Assembly (NCBI RefSeq): GCF_021730305.1
Contig: NZ_CP032674.1
Span: forward strand, 3,767,001-3,831,000
Reading direction: 5' to 3'
Length of the DNA: 64,000 nucleotides
Source: Xanthobacter sp. YC-JY1
GTDB taxonomy: Bacteria; Pseudomonadota; Alphaproteobacteria; Rhizobiales; Xanthobacteraceae
This document shows positions 4,258-14,639 of the stretch, one piece after another. Each line of letters begins with the position of its first letter. The stretch's first letter is position 1. Below the pieces are notes generated by a model that searched no databases, was not told the origin of the DNA, and saw only the letters and a list, made by a program, of their open reading frames with translations. The position numbers were made by a program, and so were the translations under genes.

Positions 4258-4695
4258 TCAGGCTTTGGCAGCACCGCCGTCCTCGGCGATCTCCTGCGCC
4301 AGCCTCGGCCCCTTCGCGAGCCGCCGCCCCAGCGCCGCGACGAACGCCTCATACCGCTCACCAGCCTTGGCTCGCGCCGCCTGCCCGGCCGGCTCCGGCA
4401 AGGGCGGCGTGGTCACGAGCCAGAACCGCACGAACACGGCCAGCGTCTCGACCGAGATGCCGACGTCGCGCTCCATCCGCGTCATCCGTCTGTCCAGCTG
4501 ATCCAGGCGCTTGGCGATCGCGGCCTCGCGCCGCTCGGCTGCGTCGGGAGACAGGAACGATGCGATGGCAGCTTCCGCGATCAGCGACTGGGGCTGGTCC
4601 CGGCGCGCGGCATAATCTGCGAGCAACGCCATGGTGTCCGGATCGAGATAGACCGAGATCTGCGCCTTCTTCTTACGTGGGACCATCGCTGTCAT
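4258..4695 (-). CDS. CopG/ribbon-helix-helix conjugation-associated protein
   Basis: A 145-aa protein. The N-terminal part KKKAQISVYLDPDTMALL followed by a helix resembles ribbon-helix-helix DNA-binding proteins. The middle is a charged coiled-coil-like stretch (KRLDQLDRRMTRMERDVGI), and a hydrophobic segment follows. Genes of this type sit between traG and trbB in rhizobial-type ICEs. Here the start overlaps the traG stop as ATGA, so they are translationally coupled. Downstream, the expected trb genes are missing. Confidence 0.8.
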   Translation of the reverse strand: MTAMVPRKKKAQISVYLDPDTMALLADYAARRDQPQSLIAEAAIASFLSPDAAERREAAIAKRLDQLDRRMTRMERDVGISVETLAVFVRFWLVTTPPLPEPAGQAARAKAGERYEAFVAALGRRLAKGPRLAQEIAEDGGAAKA

Positions 4696-6671
4696 AACTC
4701 CAAGCCGTCGTTGGGATCGAGCGAGACCTGACGCGCGACGCCCTGCATGAGACGGGTCATGCGACTGGTCCGGGCCACGTCGTCGTCCGTCTCATCGACC
4801 GGATCGATCTCGAACTCGTTGCGGGGTTGCGCAGGCGCCTCCAGGGTCTCCACCCGCGCCAGCTCCGGTTGGCGCCGCTGCTCCGTTCCCGTGGTGTCCT
4901 CATCATCGGTCTCCTCGACCATCAGGCTCAGCTGCGACGGTGTCGGCAGTGGGAGCACGGTCCAGTCGTCGGGCTGGCGATCGCGAGGGGCCAAGAGCTC
5001 CGGGGGGTGCAGCACCCGTTCCCTGAACCGCTCATCCTCGTAATATCGGGCCTTCTTCGCCCGGATCGGCGGAGTCCCGGCGACCATGACGATCTCGTCG
5101 GCAGGTGGAAGCTGCATCACCTCGCCCGGCGTGAGGAGCGGGCGTGCCGTCTCCGACCGAGAGACCATGAGGTGGCCGAGCCAGGGCGATAGCCGGTGCC
5201 CGGCATAGTTCTTCATCGCCTTCATCTCGGTGGCGGTGCCGAGCGCATCCGAGACGCGCTTGGCGGTGCGCTCGTCATTGGTGGCGAAGCTCACCCGCAC
5301 ATGGCAGTTGTCGAGGATGGAGTTGTTCGGGCCATAGGCCTTCTCGATCTGGTTCAGAGACTGGGCGATGAGGAAGGCTTTGAGGCCATAGCCAGCCATG
5401 AAGGCGAGCGCAGACTCAAAGAAGTCTAGACGGCCGAGCGCCGGGAATTCGTCGAGCATGAGCAGCAGACGATGGCGCCCGACCTTCGCCTTCAGGTCCT
5501 CGGTCAGGCGCCGGCCGATCTGGTTGAGGAGGAGGCGGATCAGCGGCTTGGTGCGGTTGATGTCGGAGGGCGGCACCACGAGGTAGAGCGTCGAGGGGGC
5601 CTTGCCGCCGACGATATCGGCGATGCGCCAGTCGCAGCGCCGCGTGACCTCGGCGATCACCGGATCACGGTACAGGCCAAGGAATGACATGGCGGTGGAG
5701 AGCACGCCGGAGCGTTCATTGTCGGATTTGTTCAGCAGCTCGCGGGCGGCACTGGCGATGACGGGATGCGGGCCAGCCTCGCCCAGATGAGCGATCTTCA
5801 TCATCGCGTCGAGCGTGGTCTCGATCGGCCGCTTCGGATCGGAGAGGAAGGCGGCGACACCGGCGAGCGTCTTGTCCTTCTCGGCATAGAGCACATGGAG
5901 GATGGCGCCCACGAGGAGGGCGTGGCTGGTCTTCTCCCAGTGGTTGCGCTTTTCCAGCGAGCCCTCGGGGTCCACCAGGATGTCGGCAATGTTCTGGACG
6001 TCGCGCACCTCCCACTCCCCGCGTCGGACCTCCAGCAGGGGATTGTAGGCGGCGGAGCGCACATTGGTGGGGTCGAACAGCAGCACGCGCCCGTGCCGGG
6101 CCCGGAAGCCGGCAGTGAGCTGCCAGTTCTCGCCCTTGATGTCATGGACGATGGCCGAGCCAGGCCAGGTGAGCAGCGAGGGCACGACGAGGCCGACGCC
6201 TTTACCGGAGCGGGTGGGCGCGAAGCACAGGACGTGCTCGGGTCCATCATGGCGCAGATAGTCCCCTCCGTGGCGCCCCAGCACCACGCCGTCGGGACCG
6301 AGCAGCCCAGCCGCGCGGATCTCCTCGGGCTCGGCCCAGCGGGCGGAGCCATAGGTCTCGACGCGCCTTGCTTCCCGCGCCCGCCAGACCGAGAGCCCGA
6401 TGGCGGCGGCGATGGATAGGAACCCGCCCGAGGCGGCGATGATCGCCCCCTCGGTGAAGATGGCCGGCGCATAGGCGTCGTAGAAATACCACCACCAGAA
6501 GAAGGCCGGCGGGGGATAGACGGGCCAGCGCCCCAGCAGGAACCAGGGCGGGCCGAGCTGGTCCTGGAAACCAAGCCGCCACGCCATGAACTGCGTGGCG
6601 CCCCAGCTGGTGGCGAGCACGATGGCGAGGACGAGGAGGATCTGGCCCCAGAGAATCTTGGTCGCGGACAT
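4692..6671 (-). CDS. traG: TraG/VirD4-family type IV coupling protein
   Basis: A 659-aa inner-membrane ATPase that links the relaxase-DNA complex to the conjugation channel. From the chosen start there are hydrophobic segments near residues 6-30 and 70-95, then the Walker A motif APTRSGKGVG at 151-160 and a Walker B motif LLLMLDEFPALG in the C-terminal half, followed by the family's IAQSLNQIEKAYG. The start at 6671 (MSATKIL) is preferred over the upstream ATG at 6683 because GGAG precedes it at a good distance. It lies directly after the relaxase gene and overlaps copG. It looks intact. Confidence 0.93.
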   Translation of the reverse strand: MSATKILWGQILLVLAIVLATSWGATQFMAWRLGFQDQLGPPWFLLGRWPVYPPPAFFWWWYFYDAYAPAIFTEGAIIAASGGFLSIAAAIGLSVWRAREARRVETYGSARWAEPEEIRAAGLLGPDGVVLGRHGGDYLRHDGPEHVLCFAPTRSGKGVGLVVPSLLTWPGSAIVHDIKGENWQLTAGFRARHGRVLLFDPTNVRSAAYNPLLEVRRGEWEVRDVQNIADILVDPEGSLEKRNHWEKTSHALLVGAILHVLYAEKDKTLAGVAAFLSDPKRPIETTLDAMMKIAHLGEAGPHPVIASAARELLNKSDNERSGVLSTAMSFLGLYRDPVIAEVTRRCDWRIADIVGGKAPSTLYLVVPPSDINRTKPLIRLLLNQIGRRLTEDLKAKVGRHRLLLMLDEFPALGRLDFFESALAFMAGYGLKAFLIAQSLNQIEKAYGPNNSILDNCHVRVSFATNDERTAKRVSDALGTATEMKAMKNYAGHRLSPWLGHLMVSRSETARPLLTPGEVMQLPPADEIVMVAGTPPIRAKKARYYEDERFRERVLHPPELLAPRDRQPDDWTVLPLPTPSQLSLMVEETDDEDTTGTEQRRQPELARVETLEAPAQPRNEFEIDPVDETDDDVARTSRMTRLMQGVARQVSLDPNDGLEL

Positions 6672-6695
6672 GCGGCGCTCCATTGATGTGTGAGG

Positions 6696-8435
6696 TCAGA
6701 GACCGAGGTCGCGCTTGCGGCCAAAGGACCAGTCGATGCCGCCATCGGCGCGGGCGACACCCGAGAGGTGCCGGCCGAGTTGCTTCTCCAGGGACGGTGA
6801 CCAAGGCACGAGCTGGAAGCCCAATCCATCGTCGATCATGGCAAAGCGGCCAGAGGCGAGCGCGAAGCGCTGGCGGTAGGTGCCGGAGACATAGTCTCCC
6901 GTTCCTGACCGATTGAACGGCTGCCCAGTCTCGGCGGCGAGCTTCTCGCCCAATGCCTCCACCTCTCGCCGGCGCAATGTCTCGATCAGGTCACGGGCGA
7001 AGGTGACGCGCTGGCCCTGCCGCTCAGCCAGCCCCTCCCGGACCAGATGGTCGGCCCGGCGATCCATAGCCTCACGCACCTCGGCGCCGAAGCCGCCTTC
7101 GGAGAGCGATGTCGGCGCGCGGCTGAGCGCCTGCCGGTCGAGCCAGGTGGCGCCCGAAGCTGTGACCTGTTGTTCGATGGCGAGATCGGAGCGGACGGCC
7201 AGGGCGACCCGCTGCTGGCCGCGCCCGTCCTCGAACCGCCGGAGCTCCACGATGGCGCCGGACGCGCCGTCACTGGCCGCATCGAGGTCGGGCAGCCGGA
7301 TGTGATGGGTGCGGCCGTCGACGCCGTCCACCACGGCATAGGCCGTGCCCTTCAGTTCGTCATCGAGACCGCGGTCAATGAGGCGGCCGATGATGGGCGC
7401 GGCCAGGCTCTCTCCCGCGAGCACGTAGCTCGCCGTGCCGCGCTCAATACCCTGTGCCGTGAGGGCCCGGTGCATCCGCTTGATGATGTCGCCGCGGTCG
7501 CCGAGGACCCGCAGGGTCGCCTCAGCCTTCTCGTCGATGACCCACTGGCCGGGGCCGATCTCGTCCGCGAGGCCGAGGGTCTCGAGCTTGCGCAGCCGGC
7601 CCACCTTCAACGGAAGGAAGGCATCCGGCCCGCCATCGGCGTTATGCGCCACGTCAATGACACCGGCCTCGCGCTGATCGCGAACCAACTGGCGATCGAG
7701 CTGGGTCCAGCCCTCCGCCTCCACCTGCCGCTCGACGGCATGGCGGATGTCGAGGTCGGCGCGCGGGCCTAGCTCCTGGGTCACCAGATCCTGCGCGCGA
7801 GCGCGCATACCCTCCTTGATGTAGTCGCGAGAGATGACGAGGTCCTCGCCATCGTCGGTCCGGCCCCGCACCAGGATATGGAGGTGCGGATTGTCAGTAT
7901 TCCAATGGTCGACGCCGACCCAATCCAGCCTCGTGCCGAGGTCCTTCTCCATCTGGCTCGTGAGGTCGCGAGCGAAGGACCTGAGGTCGGCCATGTCCGC
8001 CGCGTCCTCGGGCGACACGATGAAGCGGAAATGGTGCCGGTCGTCGGCGCAGCGCTCCGCGAAGGCGCGGCCGTCCCCCTCCTCAGCGCCCGGCCCGAAC
8101 AGGCGAGCCTTCTCTCCGTCCCGGGTTACACCCTCTCGCCGAAGATAGCTGAGGTGCACGGACAGCGGTGCAGCACGTGCCGTGTGCCGGACCACACGGG
8201 TCTTGATCACGACGACACGCGAGCGCCTGGTGAGGAACCGATTGGCCGCGATGCTCGCCGTCCGGCCGCGGCCGAAGTGCGAGCGCGTGCTGGACGAGAT
8301 GCGGCCGGATCGGGAGACGTGCCCGCCGGCCTTCTGGGCCGCCGCGAGGGCCTGGGCGATGAAGGGGCGGACCCGCTGCGCGCGGGTGAAGCGGATGCGG
8401 CCCGGTCGGACGCGGAAGTCACGCTCATCGGCCAT
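6696..8435 (-). CDS. VirD2-type relaxase with DUF3363
   Basis: A 579-aa MOBP-like relaxase expected to nick oriT and pilot the strand. The N-terminus is Arg-rich. Motifs seen are HLSYLRREGV (Tyr97 is a candidate nucleophile), DRHHFRFIVSPED near 132, and the metal-binding His-x-His in NPHLHILVRG (184-186). The long C-terminal half matches the DUF3363 region that accompanies these relaxases. It corresponds to RlxS of rhizobial symbiosis islands. The ATG at 8435 (MADERDF) is preferred to an upstream TTG. It is followed 24 bases later by traG. Confidence 0.92.
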   Translation of the reverse strand: MADERDFRVRPGRIRFTRAQRVRPFIAQALAAAQKAGGHVSRSGRISSSTRSHFGRGRTASIAANRFLTRRSRVVVIKTRVVRHTARAAPLSVHLSYLRREGVTRDGEKARLFGPGAEEGDGRAFAERCADDRHHFRFIVSPEDAADMADLRSFARDLTSQMEKDLGTRLDWVGVDHWNTDNPHLHILVRGRTDDGEDLVISRDYIKEGMRARAQDLVTQELGPRADLDIRHAVERQVEAEGWTQLDRQLVRDQREAGVIDVAHNADGGPDAFLPLKVGRLRKLETLGLADEIGPGQWVIDEKAEATLRVLGDRGDIIKRMHRALTAQGIERGTASYVLAGESLAAPIIGRLIDRGLDDELKGTAYAVVDGVDGRTHHIRLPDLDAASDGASGAIVELRRFEDGRGQQRVALAVRSDLAIEQQVTASGATWLDRQALSRAPTSLSEGGFGAEVREAMDRRADHLVREGLAERQGQRVTFARDLIETLRRREVEALGEKLAAETGQPFNRSGTGDYVSGTYRQRFALASGRFAMIDDGLGFQLVPWSPSLEKQLGRHLSGVARADGGIDWSFGRKRDLGL

Positions 8436-8678
8436 GACGCGCGCCCGCAATGTGGGAGAAAGTCAACGAGACCAGAGACTTGAGCGCTCGATGCACATTT
8501 CCGATCAGCGGTGCAATGTGCGTTCGGCTCAAAATTACCAAGCAAAAACAACCGCCCGACCGAAGCGCACCCTGCGCCCTTTTATCTCGCCATCGAACGG
8601 TTGGGGTGCCCGTCTTCCCGCCCTGCCTTCGCCCTGACGCGACGCAGCCCGAGAACGCACGAATGGAGGCTGAGGCGA
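8436..8678. other. Candidate oriT region upstream of the relaxase
   Basis: This 243-base non-coding gap lies between the lytic transglycosylase gene and the relaxase gene, where oriT lies in related ICEs. It contains the inverted repeat GCACATT (8493-8499) / AATGTGC (8515-8521), followed by an A-rich, lower-GC stretch near 8530-8555. Inverted repeat, AT-rich flank and relaxase adjacency are what an oriT needs, but no nic site can be proven by eye. Confidence 0.45.
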
Positions 8679-9455
8679 TCATGGCGCACCTCCCCTACCC
8701 GGTCGGGCGACGAACAAGCCGGCCGATGGCGGGACGATGGCTGAGACATCGCTCACACCTAGTGCGGGCGGCACGCTGTCCGTCTGCGGTCGATCCGTCG
8801 CCAGCGTGCGGGCTGGTGGCAGAATGAAGATCGGAGCGCGAGCCCACGGTGGCTGCCCCGGCTGCGGCGCGGCGGACACTCCGGATGCATCCGCACCGGT
8901 GTCGTCGCGCGCGACGACGTGCGCGAGCGCTTCGACATAGGTGCGCGTTTCCTGAGGCAGGGGCCGTCCCTTCCGGGACGCTTCGTAGCGGCTTGGCCCC
9001 GCGTTGTAGGCGGCGAGGAAGCCGGGATTACCGTAGCGATCGAACAGCTCTCGCAGATAGGCGGCCCCGGCCATGATGTTGTCATGGGGATCGTAGGGAT
9101 CGTCGCCGAGGCCATAGTGGACGCGCAGCTCGGCCCAGGTCTGCGGCATGATCTGCATCAGCCCCATGGCGCCTTTGGGCGAGGTCGAGCGCGCGTCCCC
9201 GCCGCTCTCCGCTCGCAGTACAGAGCGGATCCAGGGGGCGGGTATGTCGAAGCGCTCAGCAGCCTCCGCGATGAGATCGGCGTAGCGATCGATGGGAGAC
9301 GAGGATTTCTGTGTTGACGGTGCGTCCGTTGCGAGTGCAGCCATCGGCGAGCTCAAGGGCATCCCGGAAAGGAGAAGGATGACGGCGACACGGCGGCTTC
9401 CGCGCAACTTGAGAAACCGGCAGGCGACAGGCGAAATCAGTCTGGTCCGCGGCAT
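8679..9455 (-). CDS. Conjugation-associated lytic transglycosylase
   Basis: A 258-aa periplasmic enzyme that locally opens peptidoglycan for the conjugation machinery. Starting at MPRTRLISPVACRF, residues up to about 45 form a signal-peptide-like basic plus hydrophobic stretch (VAVILLLSGMPL). The SLT domain follows with LRAESGGD (catalytic Glu), KGAMGLMQIMPQTW and FLAAYNAGPSRY. The C-terminal about 100 residues are Pro/Ala-rich and low in structure. The frame stays open upstream of 9455, but that part overlaps traF and is less likely to be translated. Confidence 0.88.
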   Translation of the reverse strand: MPRTRLISPVACRFLKLRGSRRVAVILLLSGMPLSSPMAALATDAPSTQKSSSPIDRYADLIAEAAERFDIPAPWIRSVLRAESGGDARSTSPKGAMGLMQIMPQTWAELRVHYGLGDDPYDPHDNIMAGAAYLRELFDRYGNPGFLAAYNAGPSRYEASRKGRPLPQETRTYVEALAHVVARDDTGADASGVSAAPQPGQPPWARAPIFILPPARTLATDRPQTDSVPPALGVSDVSAIVPPSAGLFVARPGRGGAP

Positions 9456-9498
9456 GGCGGCCTCGCGAAGCTGATGATGGTTGGGATGGTGGTGACGC

Positions 9499-10044
9499 TC
9501 AGCGCGTCGGCGCGCGCCAGACGAAGTGGCTGTCGCCGGCCTCATCGGTGAAGATCGGCATGGCGCGGCCGATCACGGTGCTTGCCGGCAGCGGCCCGAA
9601 GTACCGTCCGTCGAGGCTGTCCGGCACATCGAAGTTCATGAGGAAGAGCTCGCCTTGGGCGATGCGGCGACACCCACGCCAGACCGGCAGCGGTCGCCCC
9701 ATGCGGTCGCGCTCCAGCGCTTCGCCGTAGGCCACGCCATCGACGGTGATGATGCGGTCCATTCGGCAGACCTCCTGTCCGGGAAGCGCTGCCACCCGTT
9801 TCATCAGCGGCACGCCGGCGCCCACATAGCCGCGCTCCACCAGGAAGCGGGCGAGCGCTGCCGGCGGCTTGATGGCGAGGAGGTCGGTGACCTCCAGCCG
9901 GCGCGCCGACTCGATGGCATAGAGCCCGATGGGCGCGCTGGCGGAAACGTTCCACACCAGCTTGAGCGGCGTCGGAACGAACGACGCGGCCGCCACCCCC
10001 ATCACCGAGAAGTACGTGACCATCACGGTGCCGAAGCGGGTCAT
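9499..10044 (-). CDS. traF: TraF-type S26 signal peptidase
   Basis: A 181-aa membrane-anchored peptidase of the TraF/LepB family that matures the conjugative pilin. An N-terminal membrane segment covers about residues 6-22. The catalytic Ser is in NVSASAPIGLY (Ser36 region) and the catalytic Lys in VPLMKRVAALPG. Later come LFLMNFDVPDSLDGRYFGP and a conserved AMPIF. The ATG at 10044 overlaps the stop of the DUF2840 gene as ATGA, which decides the start. Its pilin substrate (trbC) is not in the window. Confidence 0.9.
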   Translation of the reverse strand: MTRFGTVMVTYFSVMGVAAASFVPTPLKLVWNVSASAPIGLYAIESARRLEVTDLLAIKPPAALARFLVERGYVGAGVPLMKRVAALPGQEVCRMDRIITVDGVAYGEALERDRMGRPLPVWRGCRRIAQGELFLMNFDVPDSLDGRYFGPLPASTVIGRAMPIFTDEAGDSHFVWRAPTR

Positions 10045-10571
10045 GCCTCGCACTCCCTCCGCTTGAGCCACCCTTGATGGCGATCCAGCGTGTAAGGGCG
10101 CGGTGCGTGACTGGCTGCCAGACGGTGGTGGACATGACGCCAATGGTCCGGCGCCACATCCGCGCCGTGGATGCCGAGGGCATCGACGGCATCCACGTGC
10201 TGGAGCACTTTCTCCACCTTCGGCCAGCCATCGACGCGCAGCAGGATCTCGCCACCCGGTCGCACGAAAGGCAGCGTCTGGTAGGACTCGCCCGGTGCGA
10301 CGGCGCGCACGACGTCGAGGCGCGACACCACGGTGCCGAAGTCGTTCGCCGCCCATCGAACGAAGGCGAAGATGCTGTCTGGTGCAAACGAGACGATACG
10401 GCGGCTGCGGTCGAGGGTTTGCGCATGGACCGGCCGGCCGAAGCGGATCCAGTTCTCGATCCGCTTCTCGATCCAGGTCAGTTCCACATGGGTCAGCTGG
10501 TCGGCGGTCGGTGTGGCGGGTGATGCGGCGATGGGTTTGGGAACGGAGGACGGCACCGGCGGGCTCATCAT
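10041..10571 (-). CDS. DUF2840 family protein
   Basis: A 176-aa protein of a family found almost only in rhizobial-type ICEs, between the partition genes and traF. After a Pro/Ser-rich N-terminus it has THVELTWIEKRIENWIRFGR, SIFAFVRWAANDFGT and a closing HWRHVHHRLAASH segment, all typical of DUF2840. Function is not established. Both ends overlap neighbours by 4 bases (ATGA), so it is part of a tightly coupled operon from repA to traF. Confidence 0.88.
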   Translation of the reverse strand: MMSPPVPSSVPKPIAASPATPTADQLTHVELTWIEKRIENWIRFGRPVHAQTLDRSRRIVSFAPDSIFAFVRWAANDFGTVVSRLDVVRAVAPGESYQTLPFVRPGGEILLRVDGWPKVEKVLQHVDAVDALGIHGADVAPDHWRHVHHRLAASHAPRPYTLDRHQGWLKRRECEA

Positions 10572-10822
10572 GAGGCGTCTCCTGATGTCGGTGGAAATTC
10601 TCGGGCGAGGAGATCGCGGAGCATGTCCGCGACGGTCTGGCCGCGACTGAAGGCGGCGATCTTGATGCGCCCGCGCAGGTCGGGCGTGACGTCGATGGTG
10701 AGCCGCGCGGTGAAGGCCTCGGATGGGGCATCACCTGCCGGCTTGGCCTCCGCAGCCTTGATCCACTGCTCAGGATTGGCGGGCCGCGCGGCGAAGCCCT
10801 TGCGGGTCGGCGGCGCGCTCAT
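10568..10822 (-). CDS. Small ribbon-helix-helix partition-associated protein
   Basis: An 84-aa protein. The C-terminal half ARLTIDVTPDLRGRIKIAAF, then SRGQTVADMLRDLL, reads as one beta strand and two helices, the ribbon-helix-helix layout of ParG/CopG-like proteins. Lying directly behind parA with an ATGA overlap, it is probably the centromere-binding or regulatory partner of the ParA ATPase. Confidence 0.75.
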   Translation of the reverse strand: MSAPPTRKGFAARPANPEQWIKAAEAKPAGDAPSEAFTARLTIDVTPDLRGRIKIAAFSRGQTVADMLRDLLAREFPPTSGDAS

Positions 10823-11472
10823 AGGGCGGTTTCCGGAACACCGAGACCGACGATCTCAGCAGCCAGGGCAGCAATCTCCCGCGCCGCCGGCCCCTCCGCA
10901 TCGAGCTCGCTGACGAGGCGGCCGGACTGTGCCGACATGGCGAAGGCGACGCGCTGGCCAATGGTGGTCGCGAGCACGGGCGGATCGTGATCCGCCAGCG
11001 TCTCCGCGGTCTCACGGGCGAGCACGGTACGAGTGCCGCAGCGGTTCAGCACGAAGCGGGCGGCCAGTTCCGGCCGGTAGATGCGCGCCTCATTCAGGAG
11101 CGCGAGCATCTCCGCGGAGGCCCAACCATCGAGGGGCGAGGGCTGCACCGGGATCAGCACGAGGTCGGCGGCGAGGAGCACGGAGCGCATCAAGCCGGCG
11201 ACACGGGGCGGCCCGTCGATGACGATTATATCGGCATCCCGCGCCAGTTCGGGGGCTTCGCGATGCAGCGTGTCGCGGGCAAGTCCCACGACGCCGAAGA
11301 GACGCGGCAGGCCCTCGCGGCTGCGTTGCTGTGACCAGTCGAGGGCGGAGGCCTGGGGGTCCGCATCGATCAGGGTGACGCGCTCGCCGCGGCTCGCCCA
11401 CGCGCCGGCAAGGTGCAGGGCAAGCGTCGTCTTGCCGACTCCGCCCTTTTGGTTCAGCAGCGCCACGATCAT
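10819..11472 (-). CDS. parA: ParA family ATPase
   Basis: A 217-aa partition ATPase. It has the deviant Walker A motif LNQKGGVGKTTLAL near the N-terminus, the switch DADPQAS, and IVIDGPPRVAGL for Walker B. It lacks an N-terminal HTH, so it is a short type Ib ParA that would rely on the small RHH protein downstream. It may stabilise the excised circular ICE. Its start overlaps the repA stop as ATGA. Confidence 0.93.
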   Translation of the reverse strand: MIVALLNQKGGVGKTTLALHLAGAWASRGERVTLIDADPQASALDWSQQRSREGLPRLFGVVGLARDTLHREAPELARDADIIVIDGPPRVAGLMRSVLLAADLVLIPVQPSPLDGWASAEMLALLNEARIYRPELAARFVLNRCGTRTVLARETAETLADHDPPVLATTIGQRVAFAMSAQSGRLVSELDAEGPAAREIAALAAEIVGLGVPETAL

Positions 11473-12623
11473 CGCCGGCCTCCCGACGGGCTCGCGGGAG
11501 GCAAATCGGCTGCGGGAAGAGCTTCTGGCGCCTGAAATCCGTCTTTACGGAAAGACGGAAGGGCTTCATCCTTAGAGGTGAGCAGATGGGCAGGCTTTTG
11601 GGCCGGCTGAGCGCAGTTATCCACATTGGCCGCGCGCCTTTTAAAGTTAGAGTCTATGTTAGACTCTAAGTTAGGGGCGCGATTTTGCGTTTTCGGGCTT
11701 GGGGTTAACCTCTGTTTGAGTTCCCGAAAGCACGAGGGGCCAGTTCCCGATGGCACGTGGCACCGGGTTCCCGATGGCACGAAGGGATTCACAGGTTGTC
11801 CACAGGCCGGCTCGAAGGCGAGCAGCGCGCGCGCACCCGCGTCACACTCCAGGAAGAGGGTGTAGCCGGGCAGCGGCTGGCGGCGGATGATGTCCCGCAG
11901 CTCGAAGGCGAAGCGCTTGAAGGGCGAGAGGCTGCCCGATTTCAGGTGCAGGTGGCGGAAGTCGAAGCGCCAGCCGTCGGGCTGGTGACCGCCATGCTTG
12001 CGCACAAGCCGATAGAGCCAGCGGTCGAGCCCGCCCGTCAGCTCGAAATAAGCCCGGTCGATGGTGAGGACGAGGGCGTCCTCCACGATGGCGCAATAGA
12101 ACCAGTCGGGGACGATAAGCTCGATTCCCGCGGGCCGTCCGTCCCGGTCGGTGCGCTCCTTCCATTCGTTGATCCAGGAGAAGCGATGGCGCCGTCCCTC
12201 GGCCGGTTGGCGGATCGAGGTGGACACGGTGGTGGACTGCAGCCGGTCGAGCGCCGCCTTCAGGCGCTGGTAGTCCCGGAGCGAGGTGCCGCGGCCCACG
12301 AACCTGAGGATCTCATAGGGGGTCGCGGCCATGAACCGCGAGGTGCGCAGCCCGGCATCGCGGGCCTCCACGATCTGGCTCGCCGCCCAAATCAGGATGT
12401 CCGCATCCCAGATGGTCGCCATGCCATGGTCAGGCACGGCCTCGACCCGGATGGAGACATCGCCCGCCGCAAAATCGATTGGGGTGATGCGATGGGTCTT
12501 GGAGAGGGAGAAGAAGGGATAGGCCATGAGATCCTGCGCATCTCGTGGCGCGAACGCACCGGGAAGCGCGCGGAACAGATCGAGCTGTCCGCGCTCCGGC
12601 TGGGAGTGATGCCGCGCCGCCAT
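11469..12623 (-). CDS. repA: Replication initiator protein A (RepA-like)
   Basis: A 384-aa protein of the RPA family (PF10134) that would initiate replication of the circular form of the element. Typical blocks are AYPFFSLSKTHRITPIDF, MATIWDADILIWAASQI, ATPYEILRFVGRGTS and ALDRLQSTTVSTSIRQ. Later come YFELTGGLDRWLYRLVRKH and RDIIRRQPLPGYTL. The C-terminal about 110 residues after the conserved domain are low in complexity and less GC-rich. The start at 12623 (MAARHHSQ) is chosen because conserved sequence follows it, while the upstream open frame overlaps the AlpA-like gene. Confidence 0.9.
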   Translation of the reverse strand: MAARHHSQPERGQLDLFRALPGAFAPRDAQDLMAYPFFSLSKTHRITPIDFAAGDVSIRVEAVPDHGMATIWDADILIWAASQIVEARDAGLRTSRFMAATPYEILRFVGRGTSLRDYQRLKAALDRLQSTTVSTSIRQPAEGRRHRFSWINEWKERTDRDGRPAGIELIVPDWFYCAIVEDALVLTIDRAYFELTGGLDRWLYRLVRKHGGHQPDGWRFDFRHLHLKSGSLSPFKRFAFELRDIIRRQPLPGYTLFLECDAGARALLAFEPACGQPVNPFVPSGTRCHVPSGTGPSCFRELKQRLTPSPKTQNRAPNLESNIDSNFKRRAANVDNCAQPAQKPAHLLTSKDEALPSFRKDGFQAPEALPAADLPPASPSGGRR

Positions 12624-12639
12624 TGGAGAAGGGTTCCGA

Positions 12640-12921
12640 TCAGCGTGCGAAGCGACGGGGCTCGACAACGCCGGGCAGGCCCTGTCGCTTGGCCGGCAGG
12701 ACGCAGCCGCGCGGATCGGAGGTGGAGGTGACGGCGCCACGGGCGACCCAGGCCTGCAGGTCCTCGATGGCATAGACGACGCGTCCGCCGAGCTTGCGAT
12801 AGGCGGGACCGGTTCCGTAGGTGCGGTGCTTCTCTAGCGTCCGGGGCGAGAGGCTGAGGAAGACGGCGGCTTCCTTGGTGCGCAAGTAGCGTGGCGGCAG
12901 CGGGACAGCGTCGGGTCGCAT
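12640..12921 (-). CDS. AlpA/MerR-like HTH protein, candidate excisionase or activator (RdfS-like)
   Basis: A 93-aa protein starting MRPDAVPLPPRYL. A winged-helix AlpA-type domain is visible: RTKEAAVFLSLSPRTLEKHR, GPAYRKLGGRVVYAIEDLQAW. In ICEMlSymR7A the gene in this place and of this type is rdfS, the recombination directionality factor that triggers excision and is activated by FseA. Here it lies immediately downstream of the FseA-like frames and 16 bases before repA. That role is inferred from synteny. Confidence 0.8.
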   Translation of the reverse strand: MRPDAVPLPPRYLRTKEAAVFLSLSPRTLEKHRTYGTGPAYRKLGGRVVYAIEDLQAWVARGAVTSTSDPRGCVLPAKRQGLPGVVEPRRFAR

Positions 12922-13017
12922 GGATCGGGCCTCCGTGGGCGATCTCGGGCCGCTGGTCATCAGCGGCGGATGGCGATCACGGTGGCGAAGGGCAGCCGTC
13001 GAGGGGGATGGGGAAGT

Positions 13018-13044
13018 TGAGGGGGGCGAAAATCCCCACCCTCA
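13018..13044. promoter_or_regulatory. Imperfect inverted repeat upstream of the RdfS-like gene
   Basis: TGAGGGGGG (13018-13026) faces CCCCACCCTCA (13034-13044) across a short AT-richer centre. It lies about 100 bases upstream of the RdfS-like start, in the 140-base gap after the FseA-like gene. This is where an FseA-activated promoter would be expected. It could equally be an RNA hairpin at the end of the FseA-like transcript. Confidence 0.35.
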
Positions 13045-13061: not shown

Positions 13062-13830
13062 CTATGGTCTTCTGCGATGACGCAGGAGCTTGAGATATCC
13101 GCCGCCGATCATGGCGAGGCCGCCTTTGACGAGGCCGATGACCTGGTCGCGCAGCGCCGAGGTTTTCCAGGGCTCGGACGCGACGCGCTTGTGGCCGTAA
13201 AGGACCATGGCGATGTCGCGGTAGCTGGCGCCGTTCGCCCGACCATCGGCCGCCAGCATCATGGTGCGCAGCCGGCCACGCTGCTGCGCGGTGATGCGGG
13301 TGTCGGGGATCACCGGCCGACCCTCGACGGCGCGCCAGAAGCGGGTCAAGGCCTCCAGCCGCCCAATGGTGTCCACGTCCAGCGGGATCAATGCCGCCAG
13401 CGGCGCCTCGGAGCGTGTGCCGGTCAGCAGCAGCACCTGCGCGGCATGAGGTGCCGGACCATGGACCCAGTATCGGCCCTCGGTGCTATCGCGCGGCGCA
13501 ACCATGCCGCCGAACGACACGCTGGGCGCGCCCGGAAGAAACGCGGGCTGTTGGGCGAGAAGCACGATGGCCGGATCGACAACCGGCGACCACGGGACGT
13601 TCTGTTCCACGGCGGAGAGAGATGGCCGCGCGGCGAAATCGCAGCCCCCAGCGTTGCTCCACCTCCCGGGGGAGCGGGTCGGCGTCCGAGCCGGCCGTCA
13701 CGAGGGCCAGGTAGTGGTCCTGGTAGGTCTCGTCCCGGCGCAGGCACTCCCAGGCGAGGCCTTCGACGGAGAGGTCATCGAAATAATCGTAGCTGGCATC
13801 CTCTCGCCAGCGCGATGTATCGGGCTTCAT
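13062..13830 (-). CDS. FseA-like excision activator, two frames joined by an apparent +1 frameshift
   Basis: Two overlapping frames on the minus strand together encode about 255 aa. The first, from ATG 13830 (GAGG is 7 bases upstream), has the DUF6499-type start TSRWREDASYDYFDDLSVEG and LAWECLRRDE up to WGLRF. In that frame the sequence after WGLRF turns Arg-rich and featureless. In the +1 frame it continues FAARPSLSAVEQNVPW and into a full DUF2285 domain (ASYRDIAMVLYG, then WKTSALRDQV and MIGGGYLKLL). Members of the family read WGLRF followed directly by an Ala-rich turn, so the join is at TTT-C (13638-13635). In ICEMlSymR7A, FseA is made by programmed +1 frameshifting of two such frames and activates rdfS. 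Mutation or sequencing error is the alternative. Confidence 0.82.
13635..13641 (-). promoter_or_regulatory. Candidate +1 ribosomal frameshift site
   Basis: Read on the minus strand the site is CGA TTT C in frame 1. A Phe tRNA on TTT can slip to TTC, after which GCC GCG begins the DUF2285 frame. The peptide made by this slip matches the family consensus at the junction without any gap. Confidence 0.6.
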
Positions 13831-13957
13831 CACTCGCCTCCGCATCAAGGGTGCGTGTCGAGCGAGGACAATCTGGGATTGAGAATACTGGGGGAAGTCT
13901 GCCGGGGAGCATCGCGTGATGCGGCTGCGGCATCACCCCTGCAAACAGGCCGCAACG

Positions 13958-14215
13958 TCAGACAGTGCGGCTGAGGAGGTCCTTGTAGCCGCTGGAAGCC
14001 ACCCATCTGGCCCGGGCCAGATGGCTGTCATGGACATGACGGGCGCGTTCGGGCTCCCGGGCCGCGTCGATGCCGAACAGCACCGAGACGATCTCCTCCC
14101 AGCCGGCGCCATCCGCCGTGGCGTCCAAAAGGCGCGCATAAAGCTTGATGTGCGCCCGGTCGTAGTCGGTGAGATCGGGAGCGATTGGGACGGTGTCTGC
14201 AAACGCGTCGGTCAT
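13958..14215 (-). CDS. QseM-like antiactivator (small DUF2285 protein)
   Basis: An 85-aa single-domain DUF2285 protein starting MTDAFADTVP. Typical sequence is YDRAHIKLYARLLDA, WEEIVSVLFGID, then REPERARHVHDSHLARARW and the closing GYKDLL. In rhizobial ICEs, QseM binds FseA and the quorum-sensing activator and holds transfer off. The start at 14215 is preferred because GGGG precedes it; an in-frame ATG at 14233 is possible. It is divergent from the QseC-like gene, as in ICEMlSymR7A, and upstream of the FseA-like gene in the same direction. Confidence 0.82.
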   Translation of the reverse strand: MTDAFADTVPIAPDLTDYDRAHIKLYARLLDATADGAGWEEIVSVLFGIDAAREPERARHVHDSHLARARWVASSGYKDLLSRTV

Positions 14216-14365
14216 GTCACCCCACGTTTCCATGCCTGGCGCAACCTTCGTCTCTTCTAGACGACGGCGGATGGTGAAGCGAGCCCGTGAGCTGGGGCAT
14301 TCCCGGGACCGCTCGATGATCGATTGGCATCGGGAGTGCCGCCGTCTAACCCGCTAAGGCCGCTT

Positions 14366-14389
14366 GATTACATATTATAGTTGATAATC
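14366..14389. promoter_or_regulatory. AT-rich imperfect palindrome between qseM-like and qseC-like genes
   Basis: GATTA (14366-14370) and TAATC (14385-14389) face each other around an AT-rich core in an otherwise GC-rich region, about 30 bases before the QseC-like start. A divergent promoter with QseC-type operators is expected here. Eight of twelve positions per half-site are symmetric. Confidence 0.45.
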
Positions 14390-14420
14390 TCCAAGTGTGT
14401 AAATTGCGATCCGTCTGCGC

Positions 14421-14639
14421 ATGGACATGCGTAAGCTGGTCGGTCGGAACTTCGCGCGCCTGCGTCAGGAGAAAGGCCTGACGCAGGAGGATGTCGAGGC
14501 GCGCTCCGGTTTCAGCCAGCAGTACATCAGCGGCCTCGAGCGTGGCCGGCGCAACCCCACTGTCATCACCCTCTACGAGCTGGCTCAGGCGCTGGGGGTC
14601 AGCCACGTCGAGCTGGTGCAGCCCGACGGCAACGACTGA
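14421..14639 (+). CDS. QseC-like XRE-family regulator
   Basis: A 72-aa Cro/CI-type helix-turn-helix protein. It contains NFARLRQEKGLTQEDVEAR and SGFSQQYISGLERGRRNP, a complete HTH, then TLYELAQALGV. It ends shortly after the domain. In ICEMlSymR7A, QseC sits divergently from qseM and by binding the shared promoter sets a bistable on/off state. The same geometry here makes this assignment likely. It is the only rightward gene in this block and is followed by a strong hairpin. An alternative start is Met at 14427. Confidence 0.85.
   Translation: MDMRKLVGRNFARLRQEKGLTQEDVEARSGFSQQYISGLERGRRNPTVITLYELAQALGVSHVELVQPDGND

Follow-up and report, generated by a model that had tools for sequence, protein, structure and literature searches.

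A gene divided between two overlapping reading frames on the minus strand of the window, the whole 64,000 nt stretch of Xanthobacter sp. YC-JY1 DNA analysed here, is very probably the fseA of an ICEMlSymR7A-type ICE, in which a +1 slip joins the frames, FseA activates rdfS and QseM acts as antiactivator. The two frames (Table 1), the conserved site at which they meet, a switch of coding constraint from one frame to the other and the neighbouring genes are read directly from the DNA. Comparison with related loci gives good support to the view that the split, in what would be a new FseA-family member, represents a conserved control point of a type described previously rather than a mutation. Annotation of such a conserved split gene as two genes or as a pseudogene would mislead.

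Table 1. Positions of the fseA-like gene, its slip site and neighbouring features in the window
Feature	Position	Strand	Basis or remark
fseA-like gene, both frames, ATG to stop	13062..13830	-	769 nt, a simple reading frame plus one base
Frame 0: DUF6499 (PF20109), then unconstrained tail past the slip site	13486..13830	-	PF20109 74 bits (Pfam cut-off 23.8); variable sites
+1 frame: middle region and DUF2285 / RovC-type DNA-binding domain (PF10074)	13062..13634	-	124.4 bits (Pfam cut-off 26.4)
Slip site CGA TTT C	13635..13641	-	TTT 13638-13636, C 13635
TGGGGG (Trp-Gly codons), Shine-Dalgarno-like	13645..13650	-	ends 6 nt 5' of TTT
GGAGG, likely ribosome-binding site of the DUF6499 frame	13837..13841	-	sequence reading; just 5' of the start codon, ATG 13830-13828
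rdfS-like gene (HTH_17), predicted excisionase / recombination directionality factor	12640..12921	-	PF12728 (on longer ORF 12640-12960); PDB 8dgl
Candidate FseA box upstream of rdfS, TGGGGA-N18-TCCCCA	13009..13038	-	inverted arms, 18 bp apart
qseM-like gene, DUF2285 alone, upstream of fseA	13958..14233	-	PDB 7uqt; PF10074
Sigma70-like promoter TTTACA-N18-TATAAT 5' of qseM	14374..14403	-	11/12 consensus bases
Divergent XRE-family gene (QseC-like / RihR-like)	14421..14639	+	PF01381; 93% identical to the L096 XRE protein
Downstream transfer region	4692..12773	-	RepA-like (PF10134), ParA-like, DUF2840, S26 peptidase (TraF-like), SLT, DUF3363 relaxase (RlxS-like), TraG

Reading frames and conservation of the +1 register

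The preliminary description had proposed an FseA-like activator in a DUF6499 and a DUF2285 frame, and both Pfam scores lie over their cut-offs at exactly the coordinates given for it. The N-terminal DUF6499 part carries the motif AWECLRRD, matching the AWEFLRRN-like motif of the family, and is directly adjoined by the C-terminal DUF2285 domain in the +1 frame; a four-copy profile matched RovC (PDB 6xz5), a DUF2285-type DNA-binding domain, at E 4e-4. Across the site, frame 0 reads TGG GGG CTG CGA TTT CGC and remains open until a stop at 13488-13486, the stretch TGG GGG CTG CGA TTT C occupying 13650-13635 on the minus strand. A +1 programmed frameshifting (PRF) site, TGGGGGCTGCGATTTC, is present beside UGGGGG at WGL, an element already noted for the FseA family in the accessible text of PMC10359603. 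The joined reading, TGG GGG CTG CGA TTT (C) GCC GCG CGG CCA, gives WGLRF-AARP. As the frames overlap by ~200 nt in the window's own sequence, the point of slippage is not fixed by a single sequence and relatives are needed to locate it.

A scan of 151 loci gave 151 DUF6499 matches, 148 of which are paired with a DUF2285 match and three of which, L146, L148 and L150 with one match each, are unpaired. Removal of 24 paired loci as repeats of identical sequence left 124 distinct loci, 59 found via the host genome's own DUF2285 copies, 61 found in other genomes via the DUF6499 profile and four being the own copies; the profile-derived loci represent part of the matches listed in other genomes, and the sample is not exhaustive. 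Among the 124 distinct loci sampled, the register is +1 in 112, continuous in 11 and offset by 2 in one (L127), counts which do not represent independent events since close loci share ancestry. All 59 loci found with the own DUF2285 copies are +1, as are 49 of the 61 derived from the DUF6499 profile in other genomes, among the matches listed, the remainder consisting of 11 continuous loci and one other. DUF6499 scores are lower in continuous loci, 27.8-55.2 bits compared with 39.1-91.2 bits in +1 loci, with overlapping ranges. The six nearest named loci are from Xanthobacter and are 91-94% identical in the DUF2285 frame.

Alignment with other fseA loci, the check proposed in the preliminary description, indicates that TTT-C and the extra base are conserved, and an uninterrupted close relative of the window's fseA, which would have counted against the original reading, was not seen among the 124 distinct loci of this non-exhaustive sample. 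The extra T, first presented as an oddity of one locus, is instead a shared family arrangement. That this base arose through erroneous sequencing, or through a recent mutation shifting the frame and inactivating this copy of fseA, draws its sole support from the incompleteness of each frame alone and is of practically negligible probability, as the register is common to all four copies in the host genome and to the 112 distinct +1 loci and coding constraint continues downstream in the +1 frame. Thus, of the two possibilities initially entertained, a control point or a mutation, conservation of register and site leads us to reject mutation or read error, and regulated slippage at the window's site would be expected from the behaviour of the published family.

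In a tree of 123 DUF2285 pieces, one of the 124 having been dropped as too short, at least five changes are required between the +1 (112) and continuous (10) states, and the starred branches force two such changes. Many branches of this tree are long, and the history of gain and loss of the +1 state stays ambiguous on it.

Position and codon signature of the slip site

The site can be read in 109 of the +1 loci, the 112 minus L019, L118 and L135, which contain no in-frame TGGGG. Counting Trp as the first codon, the fifth is TTT in 107 of these 109 loci and is followed by C in 105 and by T in two of the 107, with the complete CGATTTC present in 47/109. The earlier placement of the +1 register at TTT C is consistent with this pattern and with all four own copies. 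Exceptions are observed: L103 and L135 have TGT C for TTT C, L119 has ACC at the usual codon and TTT one codon on, L118 has no motif, and L019 has lost the Trp and retained TTTC. The loci without the usual codon or register (L103, L135, L119, L118 and L127) may either have decayed or use a different slip.

Stop codons limit the interval in which slippage can take place. A +1-frame TGA is found in L101 and L136 with just two bases separating it from TTT, and in L020, L039, L114, L128 and L133 a 0-frame stop starts 9 nt past the first T, placing the slip within -2 to +9 nt of the first T (~11 nt) if the site is common to all loci. Codon constraint changes frame at the same place. In seven close loci, variable sites at codon positions 1/2/3 of frame 0 number 12/14/34 upstream of the site and 15/5/4 over the next 150 nt, the most variable position there being position 3 of the +1 frame. 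This shift leaves the frame-0 tail, which ranges from 2 to 236 codons in length across loci, without visible constraint. Continuous homologues read WGLRLLEDP or similar, and the joined WGL-x-F-xxxP aligns with them free of gaps, its Pro being present in 106/109 loci, which bears out the WGLRF-AARP junction predicted at the outset. The frame-0 Leu before the slip codon is retained in 104 of 109 loci, using five different codons.

Synonymous codon use at the site is strongly skewed, in contrasts that are inflated by shared ancestry. Phe at the site is encoded by TTT in 107/107 loci compared with 2/23 at the conserved downstream Phe of the RFW motif, and TTT is used 24% of the time for Phe elsewhere in the fseA-like genes. 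Similarly, GGG encodes the site Gly in 93/109 versus 7/148 for the paired Gly residues of GGY, CGA encodes the Arg preceding TTT in 48/51 versus 38/212 in the LRR motif, and the site Leu is TTG or TTA in 80/104 versus 18/106 in the LRR motif. The G run consists of five G in 91, six in two and only four in 16 of the 109 loci.

This signature bears on a further explanation, in which two separate proteins are produced and translation of the DUF2285 frame begins independently at a start codon within it, as argued for rihF1a/rihF1b in the accessible text of PMC9601964. Possible start and stop codons do exist in each frame, also in L096, and GTG 13610 is a possible start of the window's DUF2285 frame. 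However, the first +1-frame ATG, GTG or TTG lies anywhere from 4 to 385 nt past TTT (median 112), giving no conserved start, a start within 15 nt of TTT occurs in just 4/109 loci, the fixed TTT, GGG and CGA are left without explanation, and both halves of rihF1 are needed together according to the same text (PMC9601964). Separate proteins are consequently very improbable, and re-initiation is rejected, a start codon not being conserved in the +1 frame.

The G run itself raises the question of whether RNA polymerase rather than the ribosome slips. Transcriptional slippage on GGGGG would be favoured by the five-G run in 91 and the six-G run in two of 109 loci, but loss of one G yields WGCDF, which lacks the Leu kept by five codons in 104/109 loci, in L101 and L136 a +1-frame TGA separates the G run from TTT, and 16/109 loci have four G only. 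With the wrong peptide and a TGA in the path in two loci, this route was rejected as highly improbable, and ribosomal slippage at TTT is retained as the preferred reading. Stable RNA structure 3' of the slip site was not detected in the four own copies (z 0.41, -0.52, -0.36 and 0.35); a downstream stem-loop was therefore discarded as a stimulator, z-scores being ~0 in 4/4 copies.

Proposed mechanism and genetic setting

A 2015 PNAS study reportedly described tRNA-Phe slippage from UUU to UUC in FseA of ICEMlSymR7A. In the window, ribosomes would translate the DUF6499 frame first; once UUU occupies the P site, tRNA-Phe would in a small fraction of cases re-pair one base on, at UUC, allowing synthesis to go on in the DUF2285 frame and to produce an FseA of 255 residues. 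Pausing or slippage is probably promoted by the Shine-Dalgarno-like GGGGG lying behind the ribosome. In prfB, the G run ends 3 nt before the slip codon; the corresponding distance in fseA is 6 nt, and GGGGG does not have to function as the run in prfB does. FseA is then expected to bind an inverted repeat 5' of rdfS, switching on excision and transfer, and QseM from the gene directly upstream would block FseA by binding its DUF6499 part. The occurrence and rate of slippage, the DNA binding and the antiactivation are attributed to the window's FseA by analogy with the published family: the accessible text of PMC10359603 describes fusion of Msi172 and Msi171 into FseA by a low-frequency +1 frameshift, binding of FseA dimers to an inverted repeat at the rdfS promoter, prevention of activation by QseM binding to DUF6499, and a requirement for a +1 shift in ~61% of 4709 FseA homologues. 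A structural model of joined FseA has already been published.

Neighbouring genes correspond to this circuit. The gene adjoining fseA downstream encodes a product matching RdfS (PDB 8dgl) at E 9.2e-9, as predicted for a wHTH recombination directionality factor, and the upstream gene encodes a product without DUF6499 that matches QseM (PDB 7uqt) at E 4.7e-20, with a PF10074 score of 26.2 bits, slightly below the 26.4 cut-off. Both neighbours had been named in the preliminary description and are confirmed. Its third, a QseC-like gene, holds in part: a divergent XRE gene is present beside qseM, but the equation with QseC is uncertain given its 93% identity to the XRE protein of L096, the locus of another genome of the same family considered below, and the role reported for RihR, the XRE protein at that place in ICEAc, which activates the integrase gene and does not regulate rihF1 according to the accessible text of PMC9601964. 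Two overlapping sigma70-like sites are found upstream of qseM compared with a shuffle mean of 0.3; outside the window, 18 kb before it, is a TrbE-type match. Across the 112 +1 loci, QseM-like and RdfS-like neighbours occur together in 89, RdfS only in six, QseM only in three and neither in 14, one of the latter having too little upstream sequence to judge.

Published FseA boxes have spacers of 15 or 16 bp in the accessible text of PMC10359603; the 18 bp spacer of the window's candidate departs from these values and gives it weaker support. The copy near 657 kb has an FseA-box-like inverted repeat with a 15 bp spacer. A box of perfect hexamer repeats spaced by 15/16 bp was rejected for the single interval scanned 5' of rdfS, with 2/95 loci matching compared with 2.0 in shuffles. 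The pattern TGNNGA-N12..21-TCNNCA, formulated post hoc, is present in 31 and absent from 81 of the 112 loci, mononucleotide shuffles giving a mean of 1.4 and a maximum of 4. The repeat 5' of rdfS is of TGGGGA type in three own copies and of TGTCGA type in the fourth, the one near 657 kb. The TGNNGA...TCNNCA arms agree at the centre in 29/32 matches, and the centres differ between copies; such copy-specific centres might insulate co-resident FseA copies from one another.

The host genome (5.39 Mb, one contig) contains four DUF6499 matches pairing with four full-length DUF2285 matches, and each pair has a shorter DUF2285 match upstream. All four copies are +1 and have the common site TGG GGG nTG nnn TTT CGC, which is still kept in a copy whose DUF2285 frame shares just 38% identity with that of the window. 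Each of the four qseM-fseA modules, located near 657, 1148, 1185 and 3780 kb in the chromosome, lies within ~7 kb of a DUF3363 relaxase match, and TrbE-type matches in the genome number three only. ICEs of the R7A type are known for quorum-sensing control, yet the LuxR autoinducer-binding domain PF03472 gave no match in the host genome, in a search whose control produced a match in 1 of 14 genomes (E. coli), and the LuxI-type PF00765 likewise gave none, in a search whose controls were also silent. With no autoinducer-binding domain found in the genome, TraR would not drive this copy, and TraR control of the window's fseA looks absent. Four co-resident copies with no TraR-type protein detected thus provide a setting for FseA, QseM and the frameshift without quorum sensing.

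ICEAc and comparison with known systems

L096 contains an fseA-like locus at 930-1698 on the minus strand, with a NodA gene 59 kb away. Gene order there runs from an integrase end through XRE, a QseM-like stretch identified by eye without a score, DUF6499 and DUF2285 to an IS481-type transposase, and the order given for ICEAc in the accessible text of PMC9601964 is intC, rihR, rihF2, rihF1b, rihF1a, AZC_3878. From this order and the distance to NodA, we infer that L096 is the rihF1 locus of Azorhizobium caulinodans ICEAc. The locus is 80% identical to the window in the DUF6499 part and 58% in the DUF2285 frame, and has the junction TGG GGA CTT CGA TTT CGC in +1 register. PRF is stated in that text (PMC9601964) to be absent from rihF1, on the ground that each gene has start and end codons of its own; it also reports that rihF1 deletion cuts ICEAc transfer ~1000-fold and that neither rihF1 half alone restored transfer to the delta-rihF1 strain. 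One joined protein would explain these deletion and complementation results more simply, and the published negative becomes directly testable. A literature search, beyond whose reach the key 2015 papers lay, found no description of the Xanthobacter locus or of an rihF1 frameshift in the text accessible to it. To the published FseA family, the present analysis adds the undetected LuxR domain, the codon skew at the site and the +1 site of L096.

A wider reading is put forward tentatively, and we consider it possible rather than probable: the site may belong to a larger +1 cassette, GGGGG-UUG-CGA-UUU-C, where UUU would slip more readily because the E-site codon, CGA or one of a few others, is weakly held, and this cassette may act without quorum sensing as a main brake on ICE transfer in Xanthobacteraceae, including ICEAc of A. 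caulinodans.

Slippage in prfB is likewise +1 with an upstream Shine-Dalgarno-like G run, and occurs at CUU before an in-frame UGA under autoregulation by RF2. In contrast to prfB, fseA has no stop codon in the A site, the 0-frame stop lying 2 to 236 codons on. RovC, described in the accessible text of PMC10359603 as activating a type VI secretion system, has a DUF2285-type DNA-binding domain in common with the window's protein but is distant. The rihF1b-rihF1a pair of ICEAc (ORS571), for which PRF is said to be absent (PMC9601964, accessible text), corresponds to L096 in gene order, and L096 has CGA TTT CGC. A system much like that of the window is FseA (Msi172-Msi171) of ICEMlSymR7A from Mesorhizobium japonicum, in which DUF6499 and DUF2285 are likewise found in two frames with +1 PRF and UGGGGG at WGL and in which QseM and RdfS are the circuit partners (PMC10359603, accessible text), both matched by the window's neighbours. 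The arrangement upstream differs: in R7A, fseA follows traI2 under a TraR-activated promoter (traI2-msi172-msi171; PMC5882170, accessible text), whereas in the window fseA follows qseM.
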